64,000 bases of DNA, taken from Thermodesulfobacterium sp. TA1. Its GTDB lineage: Bacteria; Desulfobacterota; Thermodesulfobacteria; Thermodesulfobacteriales; Thermodesulfobacteriaceae. How positions within the stretch are numbered: position 1 is the first letter of the stretch; the number at the start of each line of letters is the position of its first letter. The stretch spans positions 372,001 through 436,000 of the forward strand of contig NZ_CP043908.1 of NCBI RefSeq assembly GCF_008630935.1, read 5' to 3'. Positions 48,780 through 57,557 of this stretch are shown here, in pieces. The position numbers were made by a program, and so were the translations under genes. The notes beneath the pieces were generated by a model. That model made no database searches and was not told the origin of the DNA. It saw only the letters and a list, made by a program, of their open reading frames with translations.

Positions 48780-48870
48780 AAGAACCAACCCCCTTTAGGC
48801 TTCTTTTTTAAAAAGTTTAATTATATGTTAAGGCTTAATCGTTAAAAAGTCAAGCAAAATTGAGGGTTTA

Positions 48871-49630
48871 TGTGGTTACTATTTTAAAACGTCGTTTTAT
48901 TAAAATGACCTCCTATAAAACCATTAAGGAGGTCAGCTTCATGGGAAAAGCTACATCAGGCAAACTCACCTTTAAATAGGCTTCCTTAGCCCTCGGCTTA
49001 ACCTATAGACATACCCTCAGGCTCAAAGAAAGACTTAAAAACCTCGGTCTCATTGGAATTCAAAGAACAAAACCCAAAAACCTCTTAACCTTAAAATCAC
49101 ACCAGAACTAAGAAATACCATCATCTCCCTAAGACAAAAATACTACTTTGACTTCAATGTGCTTCACTTTAGAGACAAACTCATTAAGGACCATAATATT
49201 ACTCTTAGCTACGAAACCCTAAGGAAGCTTCTGATAGAAGAAGGACTACATGAACCAAGAAGAAAAAGGAAGGTATATCGGAGACTAAAAAGGATGCCCA
49301 AAGTGGAGATGCTTGTTCAGATGGATTTTTTGCTTCAGCTAATTCACCACAAGCCAAAGGCAGGATAGAAAGGCTTTTCGGTTTTCTGCAAGATAGATTG
49401 ATTAAGGAGCTAAGGCTTAAGAAGATAAAGGATTATGAGAGTGCGAACAAGTTTTTGGAGGAAGAGTTTTGGCCTTGGTATAATAACAGATACATGCTTC
49501 AGACAGAGAGTGTTTATAGGGAATTACCAGAGGGGTTAAATCTTGAGTTGGTATTTAGTGTGAAACAGATTAGGGAGGAAACGATATTATTAAGGCTGAC
49601 TATTCTGAAAAGCTTTTATTTTTAGAAAGA
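48871..49630 (+). mobile_element. Decayed insertion sequence (IS1202/ISNCY-like)
   Basis: The left end near 48871 reads TGTGGTTACT, and 25 bases later ATTAAAATGACC, the kind of terminal motif seen in ISNCY/IS1202 elements. The interior is the broken transposase gene. I could not find a matching inverted repeat on the right, so that end is lost or diverged; the right limit is approximate. It is the only mobile DNA recognised in the window and sits between the DUF151 and GGCT-like genes. Confidence 0.6.
48941..49625 (+). pseudogene. Broken DDE transposase (ISNCY/IS1202-like)
   Basis: Remains of an integrase-core transposase. An N-terminal helix-turn-helix (KLTF..ASLALGLTYRHTLRLKERLK) is cut by a TAG at 48977. 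A frameshift lies near 49090. The middle part (ITPELRNTII to MLVQMD, to about 49326) then joins abruptly to a C-terminal piece (SPQAKGRIERLFGFLQDRL to FSVKQIRE), so most of the catalytic core between the first Asp and the final Glu region is deleted. At least three inactivating lesions are present; it cannot encode a working enzyme. Confidence 0.85.
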
Positions 49631-49761
49631 TTGAAGAAAAAGTTAGGATCTTTAAAAAATTATCCGGATAGGTAATTTTTATATGAAAAATGAAATCAAA
49701 AAAATAGTTAAACATGTTACAATCTGTTAAAATAAAGAACTTTTAATCAGAGGTTAAAGTT

Positions 49762-50124
49762 ATGCCTAAGGTTTTTGTTTATGGCACTTTAAGAAAAGGA
49801 GAGAGTAGAAGTTTTCTTTTAACAGATTGCAAATTTCTCGGTTATGCCAAGGCTAAAGGCTTTCTTCTTTATAATGTTAGTTCCTTTCCAGGGATGGTTC
49901 CAGGTGAGGGAGAGGTCATAGGAGAGGTCTACGAAATCCCAGAAAGTTTACTGGAAAAGCTGGATAAGGTTGAAGATGTGCCTAATCTTTTTAGAAGAGA
50001 ACTTATAGAGGTTGTGCTCGAAGATGGAATAGGTATTTTGGCTTATGTTTATCTTTATAATAAAAAGGTAGATAACAAGCTTCTTATACCTTCGGGTGAT
50101 TGGAAAGATGTTAGTAAATTTTAG
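49762..50124 (+). CDS. Gamma-glutamylcyclotransferase-like (GGCT/AIG2) protein
   Basis: A 120-residue small protein of the GGCT/YtfP fold. KVFVYGTLRKGESR at the start (residues 3-16) is the substrate-binding loop, and GEVYEIPESLLEKLDKVED (about 53-71) holds the usual acidic catalytic region (Glu or Asp). FRRELIEVV and AYVYLYN follow. It may release 5-oxoproline from a gamma-glutamyl compound; actual substrate unknown. It is downstream of the dead IS and upstream of the MoxR pair, on its own. Confidence 0.85.
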   Translation: MPKVFVYGTLRKGESRSFLLTDCKFLGYAKAKGFLLYNVSSFPGMVPGEGEVIGEVYEIPESLLEKLDKVEDVPNLFRRELIEVVLEDGIGILAYVYLYNKKVDNKLLIPSGDWKDVSKF

Positions 50125-50395: not shown

Positions 50396-51289
50396 ATGGA
50401 AACAGTCGTAATAGACGGGGTTACCCTTTATCTTAGTCATCCTGATGAACTTGACATTCCGGTTTATGAAAGAAAAGAGATTTTAAACCAGATACTTGCT
50501 TGTTGGCTTACGGTAGATGAAAAGGACCTTCCTCTTACTCCCAGGTTGATAGGTAAACCAGGGGTAGGGAAGACCACCCTTGCCTACTTAGCTGCCAAAA
50601 AACTTAATAAAGAGGTTTATATTTTTCAGGCTACGGTAGACACCAGACCCGAAGACTTGATAATTACTCCGGTTATTTCAGAGGATAAAAAGATAAGGTA
50701 TATAGCAAGCCCTATCGTTTCTGCGATGATTAAAGGAGGAGTAGCTATCATCGATGAGGCAAACAGAATGAGCGAAAAATCTTGGGCATCCTTAGCCCCT
50801 TTACTTGATAGCAGAAGATATGTAGAGTCTGTGATTGCAGGTATAAAGATAAAGGCCCATAAAGACTTTAGACTTTGTGTTACGATGAATGAGGATGCCT
50901 CTACCTTTGAACTTCCTGAATACATCCAATCAAGGCTTCAACCCCAGATTTTTATAGATTTTCCCGAGGCAGAAGAAGAAAAACACATTCTTAAAACTAA
51001 CCTTCCTTGGCTTGAAGACACAACGATTAACTACCTTGTGGACTTTCTTCAGATAACCCATCAGTATGGAGAACCGTATAGTGTTAGAGACGGAGTGAAT
51101 ATAGGAAGGTATGTAGCTAAAAAACTGGCTTTTTTAACCCAAACCTCTCCCTCTACCCAGATAGCGGTTTTAGAGGTGTTAAAAGAGGCTATTGGTCTTA
51201 TTTTAGGGCCTCAGGCCTTGGTTTATTTTAAAGAGTTTATCGAAAAAGGTAAAAAGTTTAAAAAACCTGTGCTTTTTACCATAGACTGA
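50396..51289 (+). CDS. MoxR-type AAA+ ATPase
   Basis: A 297-residue AAA+ protein. Walker A is GKPGVGKTT (residues 53-61), Walker B is GVAIIDEANR (115-124), and the sensor-1 strand is LCVTMNED, with an arginine-containing helix IQSRLQPQI after it. The QATVDTRPEDLI segment after helix 1 is typical of MoxR/CbbQ/NorQ proteins, which remodel partner proteins, often together with a VWA-domain protein. Here no VWA gene follows. Instead its stop overlaps the start of a 612-residue protein (TGATG), which is therefore the likely client or partner. Confidence 0.88.
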   Translation: METVVIDGVTLYLSHPDELDIPVYERKEILNQILACWLTVDEKDLPLTPRLIGKPGVGKTTLAYLAAKKLNKEVYIFQATVDTRPEDLIITPVISEDKKIRYIASPIVSAMIKGGVAIIDEANRMSEKSWASLAPLLDSRRYVESVIAGIKIKAHKDFRLCVTMNEDASTFELPEYIQSRLQPQIFIDFPEAEEEKHILKTNLPWLEDTTINYLVDFLQITHQYGEPYSVRDGVNIGRYVAKKLAFLTQTSPSTQIAVLEVLKEAIGLILGPQALVYFKEFIEKGKKFKKPVLFTID

Positions 51290-53127
51290 TGTTAAAGCTT
51301 AACCTAAATAAAGAGGGGTCTTCCCTTTTTTTATTACCTTTTTTACCAGAAAATCTTGAGATTACTCAGGCAATATCCAAAGAGCTTATCCGTTTAAACC
51401 CTGATGGGATTGCTTTGGTCCTTCCTCCTTTTTTAAAGGAAGATTGGGTTTCTGCAGTAAAAGCCCTACCTACCATTACAGTTTTAGAAATACATTATAA
51501 GGACGAAACGGTAGAGTATCTCATAGTTTCTCCTTTATGTCCTTTGGTTGAGGCTACACGTTATGCCTTACGGTTTAAAAAAGACCTATATTTTGTAGAC
51601 CTTCCTTGTAAAGAAGAAGAAATTTTTGAAGTAAAAGGTCTTGTTTCTTCCTGTTTTTTGCCTGCAATGGGATATCAAGCTTATACAGAAACCTTTCTTT
51701 CTGGACTGATTAATAGAGGGTTAAGCTTTGAGGTTAAGCCTAAGCATCGTTACATAGCAAACAAATTACTTCATTATTCAAAAAAAGGGCTGGTTGCTGT
51801 GGTATTGCCTTATCATTTTGTTCCTGGCGTTTTAAAGGCCTTAGAACATCCTGATAATCTATATTTTTTTCCTGAAAAGCAGGCAGTAGAGATAAACCTT
51901 TATTCCTTGCATCCCCAGAGCATAAGGGAGGTTCTTGCTGAACCAGGATTTTTTCAACAGACTTACGAAGAAAAACGAGAAGAAATTTTTGCAAAACCTG
52001 ATTTTTGGTTAAATAGAGTTTCCCTTTGGGAAGATGTCTTAACCAAGGCTATAGCTAAGTTTAAAGATGAAACCGGCACAGTGCTTTCTCCTAAAGATTT
52101 AAAGGTGTTAGGGCAATTTTTAAAGAATTATCTTTTGGTAAGAGGAAACTATTTTCCTGAACTTTTTGATTTAGTGGTAGCAGCAAGGGGGGTAGGAGGA
52201 GATGAACTTGCCTTTTGGGTTTGGGAGATAGCTACTGCTTATGAATTAAAAAGGGAAGAAATAGCCTATCCAGAAATCAAGCTCTCTCCAGAGGAGTTAA
52301 ATCTGTCTGTAAAAAAGCTTAGGTTATTTAGAAAGGTAAAAAGTTTAAGGGCAGGATTAAAGTTTTTACAAAAGTTTGCTTCTCGCGAGGAAAGGAAAAA
52401 GTTTGCCCAACGATTTTCAGGTAAAACTATCTGTTCTTTCCCTCCTGAAGACATAGTGGTTGAAACCTTTGGGAAAAAAGCCTCAGAAAAGGGGATAAAG
52501 GTAATTACCGAGAACTTAAGAAAAATAGAACCCTTTATTTCTTCTCTGAAAGATGGACTGGATATAAGAGAGACTATTAGAAACTGGTTCTTTAAAGAGA
52601 TGATTTATATCAGAGAAGAACCTAAAACTAATGCCAAGATAGGGTCTTTAGTTATCATATTTGAAGAAGACCCAGACCCTATTACCGGAGAAGAAAAATA
52701 TCCTTGGAATTTTACTTGGCACGGAGAGCATCATCAGGAATCAGACATGGCTTTTTATGCTACCGACCCTAAAGAAAAGGTAATCGGTCCAGGTATAGCC
52801 AGGGCTAAATATGGAGGGTTTATGTTGACCTACCCTCCTAAAAGGGTATATGATATCTGGACAGACCCTCTTTTTTCGTTGGCTGAAAACAAACCAGAAA
52901 GGTTGCTTTTAGCTGCTATAGACTACAGCCTTGAAAAATATGTGCTGTATATAGCCAAAAAACCTCCTACTTCTTTTGCCAAAAACTGGGCGTTTAGACA
53001 GGGTAAAAAGGTGATTTTTCTTCCGATCGGGTCTTTCTCAAAGAATTTGTTAGAAAAAGTAAGAACCTTTCATGTGCTTGAAGGGGCTCATGTAAGAGAA
53101 TATGCCCATAAATTCATAGATAAATAG
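51289..53127 (+). CDS. MoxR partner protein; N-terminal TraB/TIKI (DUF5682-like) fold
   Basis: A 612-residue soluble protein with no clear named family. Residues 1-190 follow the order of DUF5682/TraB-type proteins: LNPDGIALVLPP (36-47), SPLCPLVEATRYAL (81-94), YFVDLP (101-106), a basic helix HRYIANKLL (153-161) and VVLPYHFVPGVLKAL (171-185). The first GxxH metal motif is missing, while His176 of the second is kept. A helical middle (200-440) leads to a C-terminal domain with FTWHGEHHQESD (475-486) and a late HVREYAHKF (601-609), both His-rich. It is translationally coupled to the MoxR ATPase. The fold call is inference from motif order; function unknown. Confidence 0.6.
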   Translation: MLKLNLNKEGSSLFLLPFLPENLEITQAISKELIRLNPDGIALVLPPFLKEDWVSAVKALPTITVLEIHYKDETVEYLIVSPLCPLVEATRYALRFKKDLYFVDLPCKEEEIFEVKGLVSSCFLPAMGYQAYTETFLSGLINRGLSFEVKPKHRYIANKLLHYSKKGLVAVVLPYHFVPGVLKALEHPDNLYFFPEKQAVEINLYSLHPQSIREVLAEPGFFQQTYEEKREEIFAKPDFWLNRVSLWEDVLTKAIAKFKDETGTVLSPKDLKVLGQFLKNYLLVRGNYFPELFDLVVAARGVGGDELAFWVWEIATAYELKREEIAYPEIKLSPEELNLSVKKLRLFRKVKSLRAGLKFLQKFASREERKKFAQRFSGKTICSFPPEDIVVETFGKKASEKGIKVITENLRKIEPFISSLKDGLDIRETIRNWFFKEMIYIREEPKTNAKIGSLVIIFEEDPDPITGEEKYPWNFTWHGEHHQESDMAFYATDPKEKVIGPGIARAKYGGFMLTYPPKRVYDIWTDPLFSLAENKPERLLLAAIDYSLEKYVLYIAKKPPTSFAKNWAFRQGKKVIFLPIGSFSKNLLEKVRTFHVLEGAHVREYAHKFIDK

Positions 53128-53311: not shown

Positions 53312-54325
53312 ATGAGCTACTTAATAGAAAGCAAAAATCCGGTGATGAAAGAAGTCTATCGATTAGCTAAGAAGGTAGCTCCTTCAAGTAGCACGGTTCT
53401 TATTTTAGGTGAGTCAGGTACCGGAAAGGAAGTCTTGGCTAAATACATACATTTTAACAGTAAACGTCAAGGACCTTTTGTGGCTATTAATTGTGCAGCC
53501 ATACCAGAAGAACTGCTTGAAGCAGAGCTTTTTGGGTATGAAAAAGGAGCTTTTACCGGTGCAATCAAGACCAAACCAGGTAAGTTTGAAATAGCTAATA
53601 AAGGTACCCTTTTCCTTGATGAAATAGGGGATTTAAGCGCCAAACTTCAAGCCAAACTTCTTAGAGTCCTTCAAGAAAGACAGGTAGAAAGATTAGGGGG
53701 AGAACATTCTATTAAAGTAGATGTAAGGATTATTGCTGCTACCAATAAAGATTTAGAAAAAGAGGTAAAAGCCGGTAGGTTTAGAGAAGACTTGTTTTAT
53801 AGACTAAACGTTATTCCTATAAAACTCCCTCCACTTAGAGAGAGAAAGGAAGACATTCCCCTTTTGGTTAATTTTTTTCTCCAAAAAGTTTGTGAAAGAG
53901 AAGGGGTCCAGGTTAAAAGGTTGTCTGAGGAGACTTTACAAAGACTTTTAGCCTATCATTGGCCAGGTAATGTAAGAGAACTTGAAAATTTAGTAGAAAG
54001 ACTGGTGGTATTGGTTGATAAAGAGGTTATAGAGCCTGAAGACCTTTCTTATCCTTTTGGTACTTCCTTTACTTCTGAAGAAGATAAGCTGCTTAAAGAG
54101 ACTCTATCTCTATATACCACCATTTCTTCCAACCAAAATGGGATAACCCTGCCTGAACTTACTGAGAGAGGGGTTGATTTAAACAACCTTATAAAAGAAA
54201 TAGAGCTTTTTTACCTGAAAAAAGCTTTAGAGAAGACCTCAGGGGTTAAAACCAAGGCTGCTAAGCTTCTTAATCTTAACCGTACTACCTTTATAGAAAA
54301 GCTAAAAAAATACAATCTGGCATAA
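53312..54325 (+). CDS. Sigma-54-dependent activator without receiver domain
   Basis: A 337-residue NtrC-family enhancer-binding protein consisting only of the AAA+ domain and a Fis-type DNA-binding domain. Walker A is GESGTGKE (about residues 33-40), the sigma-54-contacting loop is GAFTGA, Walker B is TLFLDEIGD, and the C-terminal helix-turn-helix is TKAAKLLNLNRTTFIEKLKKY. With no sensory domain it must be controlled by expression level or by a partner; the second activator at 56211 is an obvious candidate. Position at the head of the flagellar operon points to flagellar gene control, as for FlrC/FlgR-type proteins. Confidence 0.92.
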   Translation: MSYLIESKNPVMKEVYRLAKKVAPSSSTVLILGESGTGKEVLAKYIHFNSKRQGPFVAINCAAIPEELLEAELFGYEKGAFTGAIKTKPGKFEIANKGTLFLDEIGDLSAKLQAKLLRVLQERQVERLGGEHSIKVDVRIIAATNKDLEKEVKAGRFREDLFYRLNVIPIKLPPLRERKEDIPLLVNFFLQKVCEREGVQVKRLSEETLQRLLAYHWPGNVRELENLVERLVVLVDKEVIEPEDLSYPFGTSFTSEEDKLLKETLSLYTTISSNQNGITLPELTERGVDLNNLIKEIELFYLKKALEKTSGVKTKAAKLLNLNRTTFIEKLKKYNLA

Positions 54326-54332
54326 AATTTGT
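54318..54332 (+). promoter_or_regulatory. Candidate sigma-54 promoter
   Basis: TGGCAT (54318-54323), five bases, then TTGT (54329-54332), close to the -24/-12 consensus TGGCAC-N5-TTGC, with GG and GT ten bases apart. It straddles the stop of the activator gene and would start transcription at about 54343, just before the TPR gene's ATG at 54347. Confidence 0.4.
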
Positions 54333-54346
54333 TTAATTTTTAAAGG

Positions 54347-56203
54347 ATGTCTAAGGGGTTAAAATTTGTTTGCTTATTTTTGGGTTTGTTTTTAGCTTAC
54401 TTTATTCCTAAGGTGTTTTCTCAGCCTAAAAATTTACAAAACGCAACCCTTATTTCTTCTAACTTTACCTTGACCTATCAGCAAAAAGGAGAAGAAATTT
54501 TACAGGAAATAAAGAACGCTTATGCTCGAAAAGAGTATGAAAAAGTAGTATTTCTTGCTAAGTCTTTACCTGCTCTCTTTTCTGTAAGACCAGAAGAAAA
54601 TTTGCTTATAGCAGAAAGCGCTTTAAAAGAAGGATTTTTATCAGAGGCAATCGATTTTGCTCAAAAGGTAGCTTCTGTAACCAAAGGCAGAAACGAAGCC
54701 TGTGTGGCTAATCTTATAAGGTTTAAATCCCTTTTTTTGATGGGAAAAGGCCCTTTAGTGGTTAAAGAGGTAAAAGAATTTCTTGATTCTTATTGTGATG
54801 ATGCTATCAAAAAAGAGGCTAAAATTCTTTTGTATCACTTTAAAGTTTTGCCTGAAAAGGAGATAAAGGACCTTTCAGCTACAGAGATAAAAAAAAATAT
54901 AAGAGAGTTTTATAAAACCCAAATAGTTTATCTCTTGCGTCAGGGTAAGGTTGATGAAGCAAGGTCTAAGGTTTTTTACTACATAAACGTATATGGGGCT
55001 CCAGAAGAAGCCCCAGAACTTCTGTTAAAACTTGCAGAAGCTTATTTTAAAAAAGGAGAGCGAGAAAAGGCTAAGAACCTTTATCAACTTATCATTACTT
55101 TTTGGGATAAAGGCAACCCAAGTTTGGTTTCTAAGTTTAGGCTTTATCAGATAGCTTATGAAAAAGCGCCTTTTAAAGAACTTTTACCAAGACAAACTAA
55201 AGAAGACCTCCTTTCTTTTTCCGCACAGGTAAAGGCTAAATTTTCTAAAACCCCTTTGGCTGAAGAGGCGCACTTAGTAGAGTTAAGGGTGCTTTCTGAC
55301 CTTAAAAACTATAAATTTTTAAGAAAAAGCGCTTTAGAATTTTTTCAGCAATTTCCTGAAAGCTTAAACCTAAAAGAAGTAAACCAATTTTATTGCATGG
55401 CTGTGTCTCAACTTTTTAAAGAAGGTATCGAGGCCCAACGCATTTCTGAGGTTTTATCCTTAGAAAAAGAAGATAAAGAACAATTGGCTAAGGTAAAATG
55501 TGGTGAACCCTTTTATGTTTTAGGAAACATGTTTTTAGATTATAAGCTTTATACGAGAGCTGTCTTAGAATACATCAAGGCCTTTGAGGTTGGGGTGCCT
55601 GCTGAGATAAAACCTTCTCTACTTTTAAACCTCAGCTTTGTTGCGGTTGAAACAGAAGAACCTGAGGTGTTCTTTTCTGTTTTTGGGTACTTGCTCTCGA
55701 CTTATCAAGAGAAAAGTTTAGCTACCTATCCTTTTTATCATTACCTTAGGACTTTATACGAAGGAAAAAAAAGTTTATCTCAGGCAGAAAAATATCTTAC
55801 CCAAGCTTTATCTTCTAACCTTTCAGATTTTTATAAAAAAAGGCTTATTTCTTTTATGTTTAATCAGGCTCTTATTACTAAACAATATGCCAAAGCCTGG
55901 GGATATCTGCAAAATTCCTATTTTCAACCAGAGCTTAAGGATTACCTACTGATCCTTTTAGAAAGTTTAGGTAAAGACAACCTTACCTTTGAAAGGGCTC
56001 TTGAGGTAGCTAAACAAAGGTTCCCTAAAGAGCCTAAGATAGCCCTGATAGAGGTTTATTATTTAGAAAGCAAAGGAAAGATAGGAAAGGCAGATACCAT
56101 ATGGCAGGGATTGACCGAAGCCTCGAATTTAGAAAAAGAGCTGGCTGAAATTTATAAAAAAAATAAAGAGCTGGTAGAAAGAGCACAAAAGTTAGTTTTT
56201 TAG
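54347..56203 (+). CDS. Exported TPR-repeat protein of the flagellar cluster
   Basis: A 618-residue protein with a signal peptide (about residues 1-26, ending VFSQ) and a long all-helical body. Degenerate tetratricopeptide-like helix pairs are visible, for example LLKLAEAYFKKGEREKAKNLY (split; about 227-247), PFYVLGNMFLDYKLYTRAVLEY (about 387) and a run near 500. Such proteins scaffold envelope or motility complexes. It sits between the two sigma-54 activators and 14 kb-scale flagellar genes, so a periplasmic motility role is likely but not shown. Confidence 0.78.
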   Translation: MSKGLKFVCLFLGLFLAYFIPKVFSQPKNLQNATLISSNFTLTYQQKGEEILQEIKNAYARKEYEKVVFLAKSLPALFSVRPEENLLIAESALKEGFLSEAIDFAQKVASVTKGRNEACVANLIRFKSLFLMGKGPLVVKEVKEFLDSYCDDAIKKEAKILLYHFKVLPEKEIKDLSATEIKKNIREFYKTQIVYLLRQGKVDEARSKVFYYINVYGAPEEAPELLLKLAEAYFKKGEREKAKNLYQLIITFWDKGNPSLVSKFRLYQIAYEKAPFKELLPRQTKEDLLSFSAQVKAKFSKTPLAEEAHLVELRVLSDLKNYKFLRKSALEFFQQFPESLNLKEVNQFYCMAVSQLFKEGIEAQRISEVLSLEKEDKEQLAKVKCGEPFYVLGNMFLDYKLYTRAVLEYIKAFEVGVPAEIKPSLLLNLSFVAVETEEPEVFFSVFGYLLSTYQEKSLATYPFYHYLRTLYEGKKSLSQAEKYLTQALSSNLSDFYKKRLISFMFNQALITKQYAKAWGYLQNSYFQPELKDYLLILLESLGKDNLTFERALEVAKQRFPKEPKIALIEVYYLESKGKIGKADTIWQGLTEASNLEKELAEIYKKNKELVERAQKLVF

Positions 56204-56210
56204 GAGAAAA

Positions 56211-57557
56211 ATGAGAGGAAAGGTTGTCTTAATAGGAGATAGTTTAGAAATAAAACTTTTAAAAGACTTTTTGGAAGAAAGAGAGATAGAAACTTTTTGG
56301 TCTTCTAAAAAGGAGGCTTTCCCTAAAATAGACCCAAACGAGATAGATGTCATGGTTTATGAACTTGATTATCCCCAAACTAAAAGCTTAGAAATACTTC
56401 ATCAACTTTTTAACCAAGGGGTTAAAAACATCGTTTTTTTAGCAGAAAAAGCAGACTTAGAAGATGCGGTTGAGTTTGTAAAACATGGTGCCTATGATTT
56501 TAAACTCCTTTCTACCCCTCTTGAGTTAATAGAAAAAACCGTGCTTTTCGCTTTAGAGGACAAAAGGATTTTATGGCAGGAAGAAAGTTTTATCACCCGA
56601 GATCCTTATATGTTAGACATCTTAAAAAAACTTGAAGTAGTATCCCAAAGTAAAGTTCCTGTTCTGTTGATAGGGGAATCAGGCACAGGAAAAGAGCTAC
56701 TTGCCAAGTATATACATCAAAAAAGTCCAAGAAGGTTTGGTCCTTTTATAGCTATAAACTGTGCCGCCCTTCCTGAAACCCTTCTTGAATCAGAACTTTT
56801 TGGCTATGAAAAAGGAGCTTTTTCTGGAGCTAACTTTAGGAAAAAAGGAAAGATAGAACTGGCAGAGGGAGGGACTCTATTTTTAGACGAGATAGCTGAG
56901 ATGAACCCTAATCTTCAGAGCAAACTTTTACGTGTATTGCAAGAAGGGGAAGTTGATAGACTCGGGGGATACCATCCGATAAAGGTAGACGTTAGGTTTT
57001 TGGCAGCTACCAATAGAGACATTGAAAAAGAAGTTCAAGAAGGTAGGTTTAGGTCAGACCTATACTATAGATTAAACGTTATTACCGTTAAAATACCACC
57101 TTTAAGAGAAAGAAAAGAGGATGTCAAATTTTTGTCAAGTTTTTTTCTGGAAAAATTTTCCCGTTTATACCGAAAGACTTTAAAAGGTTTTTCTGAAGAG
57201 ACACAAAAATTTTTGTTGGAATATCCCTTTCCTGGAAACGTAAGAGAACTTAAAAACATGATAGAAAGAGCAGTTCTTATCTGTGAAAAGGACGTGATAG
57301 AGGTTAAACATCTGATAGACCCTTTTTCTCAAAACGAAAAAAGAGAAATGAGCTTAGGCATGAATTTTGATAATAAATCTTCGGATTTAGTGGTAAAACC
57401 TTTGGAAGAGCTTGAAAGGGAAGCTATCATGAAGGCTTTGGAAGTGGCTAAAGGTAATAAAACACGGGCGGCTGAGCTCCTTGGGATTACGGTTAGAACG
57501 TTGAGGAATAAGTTAAAACAATATCAGGCTACCAAGTTTTCTGAAGGGAGGATTTAA
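56211..57557 (+). CDS. NtrC-family regulator with degenerate receiver domain
   Basis: A 448-residue sigma-54 activator with receiver, AAA+ and Fis-type domains. The receiver (1-115) is degenerate: the phospho-acceptor position is Glu51 (VYELDYP), the acidic pocket is reduced to GDS, and the conserved Lys is replaced in LLSTP. This resembles FleQ/FlrA-type flagellar master regulators, which do not rely on phosphorylation. The AAA+ part has GESGTGKE and LFLDEIAE; the sigma-54 loop reads GAFSGA instead of GAFTGA. The C-terminal helix-turn-helix is NKTRAAELLGITVRTLRNKL. It directly precedes flgB by two bases. Confidence 0.92.
   Translation: MRGKVVLIGDSLEIKLLKDFLEEREIETFWSSKKEAFPKIDPNEIDVMVYELDYPQTKSLEILHQLFNQGVKNIVFLAEKADLEDAVEFVKHGAYDFKLLSTPLELIEKTVLFALEDKRILWQEESFITRDPYMLDILKKLEVVSQSKVPVLLIGESGTGKELLAKYIHQKSPRRFGPFIAINCAALPETLLESELFGYEKGAFSGANFRKKGKIELAEGGTLFLDEIAEMNPNLQSKLLRVLQEGEVDRLGGYHPIKVDVRFLAATNRDIEKEVQEGRFRSDLYYRLNVITVKIPPLRERKEDVKFLSSFFLEKFSRLYRKTLKGFSEETQKFLLEYPFPGNVRELKNMIERAVLICEKDVIEVKHLIDPFSQNEKREMSLGMNFDNKSSDLVVKPLEELEREAIMKALEVAKGNKTRAAELLGITVRTLRNKLKQYQATKFSEGRI

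Follow-up and report, generated by a model that had tools for sequence, protein, structure and literature searches.

A VWA cofactor generally occurs alongside MoxR proteins (PMC3893208). Discussion of MoxR ATPases usually treats them as members of MoxR/VWA couples. Among these, NorD has a variable N-terminal domain, proposed to give target specificity, and a C-terminal VWA domain that has been proposed to plug the MoxR ring; McrC plugs the McrB ring without a VWA domain (PMC9976466). VMAP and other MoxR-VWA conflict systems consist of a VWA protein plus a third component (PMC7159879). The nearest described arrangement to the locus presented here is YehL-YehM-YehP-YehQ of E. coli (MoxR, DUF5682, VWA and SWIM, respectively). 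Here we describe a two-gene locus from Thermodesulfobacterium sp. TA1, in which a MoxR ATPase gene is followed by a gene for a partner protein with a TraB/DUF5682-like N-terminal domain and a C-terminal domain of its own. No description of this pair was found in the titles and abstract openings returned by full-text searches, whose coverage mostly leaves out subscription journals.

Organization of the gene pair

The window, which is the whole 64,000-nucleotide stretch of DNA that was analysed, is part of a complete genome of 1.83 Mb. As shown in Table 1, the two open reading frames, the AAA+ MoxR protein with its intact Walker motifs, the one-base overlap and the 612-residue partner described in the first-pass annotation were all confirmed; the base common to the moxR stop and the partner start lies in the sequence ..TGATG... 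No Rfam families were found in the region. Among the named relatives found, Thermodesulfobacterium thermophilum is the closest, with 81% identity over the partner as a whole.

Table 1. Coordinates of the moxR-partner gene pair and its features (window positions)
Feature	Position	Strand	Description
moxR ORF	50396..51289	+	297 aa, MoxR-clade AAA+ ATPase
Walker A (GKPGVGKTT, residues 53-61)	50552..50578	+	G53, P55, G56, G58, K59, T60, T61 invariant
Walker B region (VAIIDEANR, residues 116-124)	50741..50767	+	D120, E121, N123, R124 invariant
Partner ORF	51289..53127	+	612 aa; start codon overlaps moxR stop
TraB/PrgY-like, DUF5682 N-terminal-like domain (residues ~9-204)	51313..51900	+	catalytic 2His/2Glu-type residues lost in window copy
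Partner middle region (residues ~205-360)	51901..52368	+	helical in low-confidence model
Private C-terminal domain (residues ~380-610)	52426..53118	+	most conserved part of partner

The MoxR protein matches Pfam AAA_5 (E 3e-19) and AAA_3 (E 6e-10), both above cut-off. Its Walker A (GKPGVGKTT) and Walker B (IIDEAN) motifs are intact, with their key residues invariant in an alignment of 15 orthologues, and the nearest solved structures in a PDB sequence search are those of midasin, CbbQ and NorQ. The orthologue on a Neochlamydia plasmid is 59% identical to it, the next best match in the plasmid records being only ~27% identical.

The locus had also been described as standing next to a dead IS. 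A broken, multi-copy element is indeed present at 48839-49640; the genome holds a further copy at 91% and a partial one at 86%, and the IS fragments have no Pfam match. However, "next to" is loose, as an intact gamma-glutamylcyclotransferase-like gene (49762-50124) lies between this remnant and moxR. On the other side of the pair, at 53312-57557, a TPR-like protein is encoded between two sigma-54 activator-like proteins, upstream of flagellar rod genes; the other Thermodesulfobacterium loci that were read also have this sigma-54 activator/TPR block after the pair.

Distribution and pairing

The two genes were looked for in a sample of 297 genomes from the phylum and in collections of plasmid, phage and viral sequences. 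A protein search with the partner gave matches in 50 of the 297 genomes; one of these (G040, E 7e-4) falls in an ORF read as an ABC exporter and was set aside, so that 49 remain. MoxR, at a cut-off of E 1e-60 chosen by us, was found in 49 genomes, and the weakest accepted matches (5e-72 and 8e-76) cover just query residues ~72-278. The two sets are the identical 49 genomes, each with a single copy of each gene, a count that is uncorrected for kinship among the genomes. The pair is obligate within this sample, and is present in about one-sixth of the sampled phylum genomes. Neither the MoxR nor the partner is encoded in G100 and G269, the two genomes that represent a sister genus within the same family. 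The pair is present also in the Neochlamydia plasmid and in one viral-collection contig. A degenerate-pattern search of the genome contigs with the window protein alone recovered one relative only, the rest having been found by the whole-genome searches.

The pairing with MoxR that the first-pass annotation had noted extends to all 49 genomes, and homologues of the partner are mostly found beside a MoxR gene: the two are adjacent and on the same strand in 37 genomes and within 800 bp of each other in 40, while the other nine have them on separate contigs or at a distance above 800 bp. Clustering of the neighbouring genes detected no third conserved gene, other gene clusters being common to at most eight loci, and no conserved third component of the VMAP-type systems (VMAP, iSTAND, FtsH or beta-propeller) occurs at the pair loci. 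The neighbours in the loci read are varied and, by eye, mostly of housekeeping type.

In G227 (L056, 5229-5916), two small genes that by eye are MNT nucleotidyltransferase-like and HEPN-like lie between moxR and the partner. In two viral-collection contigs (L105, 5125-8346, and L033, 1-2500), the partner gene is located beside phage genes. In L105 moxR is upstream of the partner and a tyrosine-integrase-like gene starts 168 bp beyond the partner 3' end, an arrangement that points to host DNA bordering a prophage.

Search for a VWA cofactor

In the complete genome, the Pfam models VWA_2 and VWA match at one place, a 611-residue ORF that also holds AAA_5, and VWA_CoxE has no match. Since the one VWA domain that these models find is fused to an AAA domain of its own, the MoxR of the pair is left with no recognisable VWA cofactor. 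Nor was one recognised in the partner: profile comparison detected no VWA domain in it, and the MIDAS motif DxSxS is absent from 39 of 41 partners and present in two. The proposal that the locus is a minimal form lacking a recognisable VWA protein is therefore upheld by the genome and MIDAS searches, in the sense that no free VWA protein is recognisable by the three Pfam models, which a very divergent VWA domain could escape.

The C-terminal domain of the partner

Across 41 sequences, mean conservation of the partner peaks at residues 481-520. Thirteen residues of its C-terminal domain are invariant in all 41, namely C382, E387, D388, E392, E428, R431, E480, E484, S485, D486, M487, Y490 and H595. 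Identity to the closest relative is 93% in the C-terminal domain and 92% in MoxR, against 70% in the TraB domain. The dN/dS ratios with respect to T. thermophilum are 0.24 for residues 1-200, 0.12 for residues 201-374, 0.026 for residues 375-612 and 0.063 for MoxR, and are rough, as they come from one sequence pair and a simple counting method at a dS of ~0.8 to 1.3. By these sequence measures, the C-terminal domain is the constrained core of the partner, and the TraB-like domain its fast-evolving part.

A profile built from 28 C-terminal sequences located the domain only in these partners among the 297 genomes, the next-best match being a 34-residue stretch at E 1e-4. The domain has no sequence match in the PDB up to E 10 and none in Pfam or NCBIfam. 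VWA, SWIM, DUF5691, DUF4132 and the DUF5682 C terminus were each considered as its identity and set aside, as none gave a profile match. An AlphaFold2 model of the domain, built on a four-sequence alignment, has a pLDDT of 38. The first-pass annotation had drawn attention to two His-rich strings, WHGEHH and HVREYAHK, as a possible metal-binding site. Both strings are present in the window copy, but most of their His residues vary among the 41 sequences (H478 is found in 11, H482 in 4, H601 in 14 and H607 in 13), the conserved His residues being H481 (38 of 41) and the invariant H595; a metal site made up of the two clusters was rejected on this account. What the pair does offer is an uncharacterised domain with invariant residues suited to mutation.

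A conserved C-terminal domain and a conserved ATPase, together with a fast-evolving N terminus, fit the NorQ/NorD plan with another domain in the position of the VWA. Our main reading, to which we assign a probability of about 0.5, is that the two proteins work as a dedicated MoxR chaperone pair that does without VWA: the C-terminal domain would be coupled to the ring, and target recognition would fall to the TraB-like domain. Judging from its motifs, MoxR probably assembles into a hexameric, ATP-hydrolysing ring of the usual kind, and the partner would take the place of the VWA cofactor. The private C-terminal domain would dock on or into this ring and would carry an essential activity or contact, while the TraB-fold domain would recognise a target, which it may also hydrolyse in most of the relatives; the outcome would be the remodelling of some housekeeping target by the pair. 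A physical complex of MoxR and its partner is an inferred part of this reading. More tentatively, the C-terminal domain could be a new fold that replaces the VWA domain as the coupling part, and the pair could serve the maturation or repair of one particular housekeeping enzyme across a large bacterial group, although we would sooner bet against this extended version than for it.

The same conservation could equally be read in terms of catalysis. The C-terminal domain would then be an enzyme of new fold and MoxR its ATP-driven activator, as McrB drives McrC; the candidates include, for instance, a metal-dependent hydrolase (E480, E484, D486 and H595) or a Cys/His enzyme (C382 and H595). The invariant C, E, D and H residues, the very strong constraint and the restriction of the domain to the company of the pair's ATPase all agree with such an activity. 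We nevertheless consider it rather unlikely, as no enzyme family was matched in Pfam, NCBIfam or the PDB sequences, and the invariant residues may be structural in a domain for which the model is of low confidence.

The TraB/DUF5682-like N-terminal domain

The window copy of the partner has no match beyond chance in Pfam, NCBIfam, PHROG, PADLOC or the PDB. Pfam DUF5682 is matched by 9 of 18 relatives of the partner at E 1 or better (best 5e-10), the window copy itself not scoring, and a genome search with the DUF5682 model scored above cut-off on family members in five genomes. In profile-profile comparisons (hhalign) built from 41 partners, residues ~7-201 align to TraB/PrgY (97%, E 1e-10) and residues 11-303 to YehM-type DUF5682 (97.5%, E 7e-12). 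The N-terminal part alone gives 97.4-98% against TraB/PrgY and DUF5682, with E values of 1e-10 to 1e-13 overall and of 1e-10 to 1e-11 for TraB/PrgY, and the controls for this part gave less than 1% for reversed profiles and unrelated families and 14% for the GumN branch. The TraB/DUF5682-like motif order first noted in residues 1-190 is accordingly real, at 97-98% in hhalign against controls below 1%. Taken alone, the middle (205-350) and C-terminal (340-612) parts match no profile tried in hhalign, so that nothing independent supports the stretch of the DUF5682 match past the TraB-like part. In the longer partners (branch L034-L048), tens of extra residues occur near residue 235, after the TraB-like domain, which places a domain boundary there. 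For the whole partner, AlphaFold2 with a four-sequence alignment gave a pLDDT of 43, and a Foldseek search with this low-confidence model returned no match at E 0.001 or better.

This homology to DUF5682, along with the order of AAA ATPase followed by DUF5682 protein that the pair has in common with E. coli yehLM and with plasmid loci, would suit a reduced conflict or stress system of the YehLMPQ-like, DUF5682 type that has lost its VWA and SWIM proteins. Such an origin appears unlikely. The MoxR protein is only 20% identical to E. coli YehL over 143 residues (E 0.027) in a pairwise comparison, and, with its subtype placed by pairwise similarity alone, is not YehL-like. The C-terminal half of the partner has no detectable DUF5682 similarity, and the partner has no match in the defence library. 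Moreover, the pair is kept as a single copy per genome among mostly housekeeping-type neighbours, with no third conserved gene and under strong purifying selection, which does not look typical of a conflict system.

Among the 37 partner rows from outside Thermodesulfobacterium, H20 is present in 34, and E44, E153 and H177 in 35 each. These positions agree with the 2His/2Glu set that is catalytic in a TIKI-fold enzyme (PMC6254334). At the same four positions the window copy has P, V, H and F; the earlier remark that the first metal His is lacking is thus correct (P at position 20) but incomplete, as E44, E153 and H177 are gone too. In the three remaining Thermodesulfobacterium rows, E153 is kept but H20, E44 and H177 are missing. 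With four copies compared, the predicted TraB active site is degenerate in Thermodesulfobacterium. The presence of the catalytic-type set in most relatives outside the genus would favour a reading in which the TraB domain does the essential work, as a hydrolase or protease under the control of MoxR, and the C-terminal domain serves as its scaffold, but this is very unlikely, as MoxR and the C-terminal domain remain well conserved in the four Thermodesulfobacterium copies that lack H20, E44 and H177, and the partners of L047 and L105 have likewise lost most of the set, which argues that TraB hydrolysis is not the common function. Under the chaperone reading preferred here, the TraB-like domain of Thermodesulfobacterium probably binds only, given its degenerate active site.

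Comparison with known systems

If the C-terminal domain does replace VWA as the coupling part, MoxR rings are not bound to work with VWA cofactors. The pair is widespread, strictly co-occurring and VWA-less, and provides a simple two-gene system for asking what a VWA partner does for the ring.

As in yehLM, a MoxR-type ATPase gene directly precedes the gene for a protein with a TraB-like DUF5682 N terminus, and yeh-type loci on plasmids show the same order of ATPase and DUF5682 genes with VWA, SWIM, DUF5691 or DUF4132 genes alongside. Unlike yehLMPQ, the pair has a MoxR of another subtype, as judged by pairwise similarity, and a partner whose C-terminal half is unrelated at the profile level, and its loci are without a VWA or SWIM gene. 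The TraB, PrgY and TIKI-fold proteins resemble the N-terminal 200 residues of the partner in profile comparison, and most relatives of the partner have the 2His/2Glu-type residues; the partner differs from these proteins in the loss of the active site from the window copy, in the fusion to a private C-terminal domain and in its link to an ATPase. McrB/McrC, in which a partner without VWA plugs an AAA+ ring shaped like those of NorQ and CbbQ (PMC9976466), is comparable by analogy only, since the partner matches no PDB chain by sequence, McrC included. With NorQ/NorD and CbbQ/CbbO, in which a MoxR of the CGN subfamily works with a VWA cofactor, the pair has in common a MoxR nearest to the midasin, CbbQ and NorQ structures and a partner that combines a variable N-terminal with a conserved C-terminal domain; it is distinguished from NorD and CbbO by a partner that has neither a VWA match nor a MIDAS motif and carries a TraB-like domain at its N terminus.
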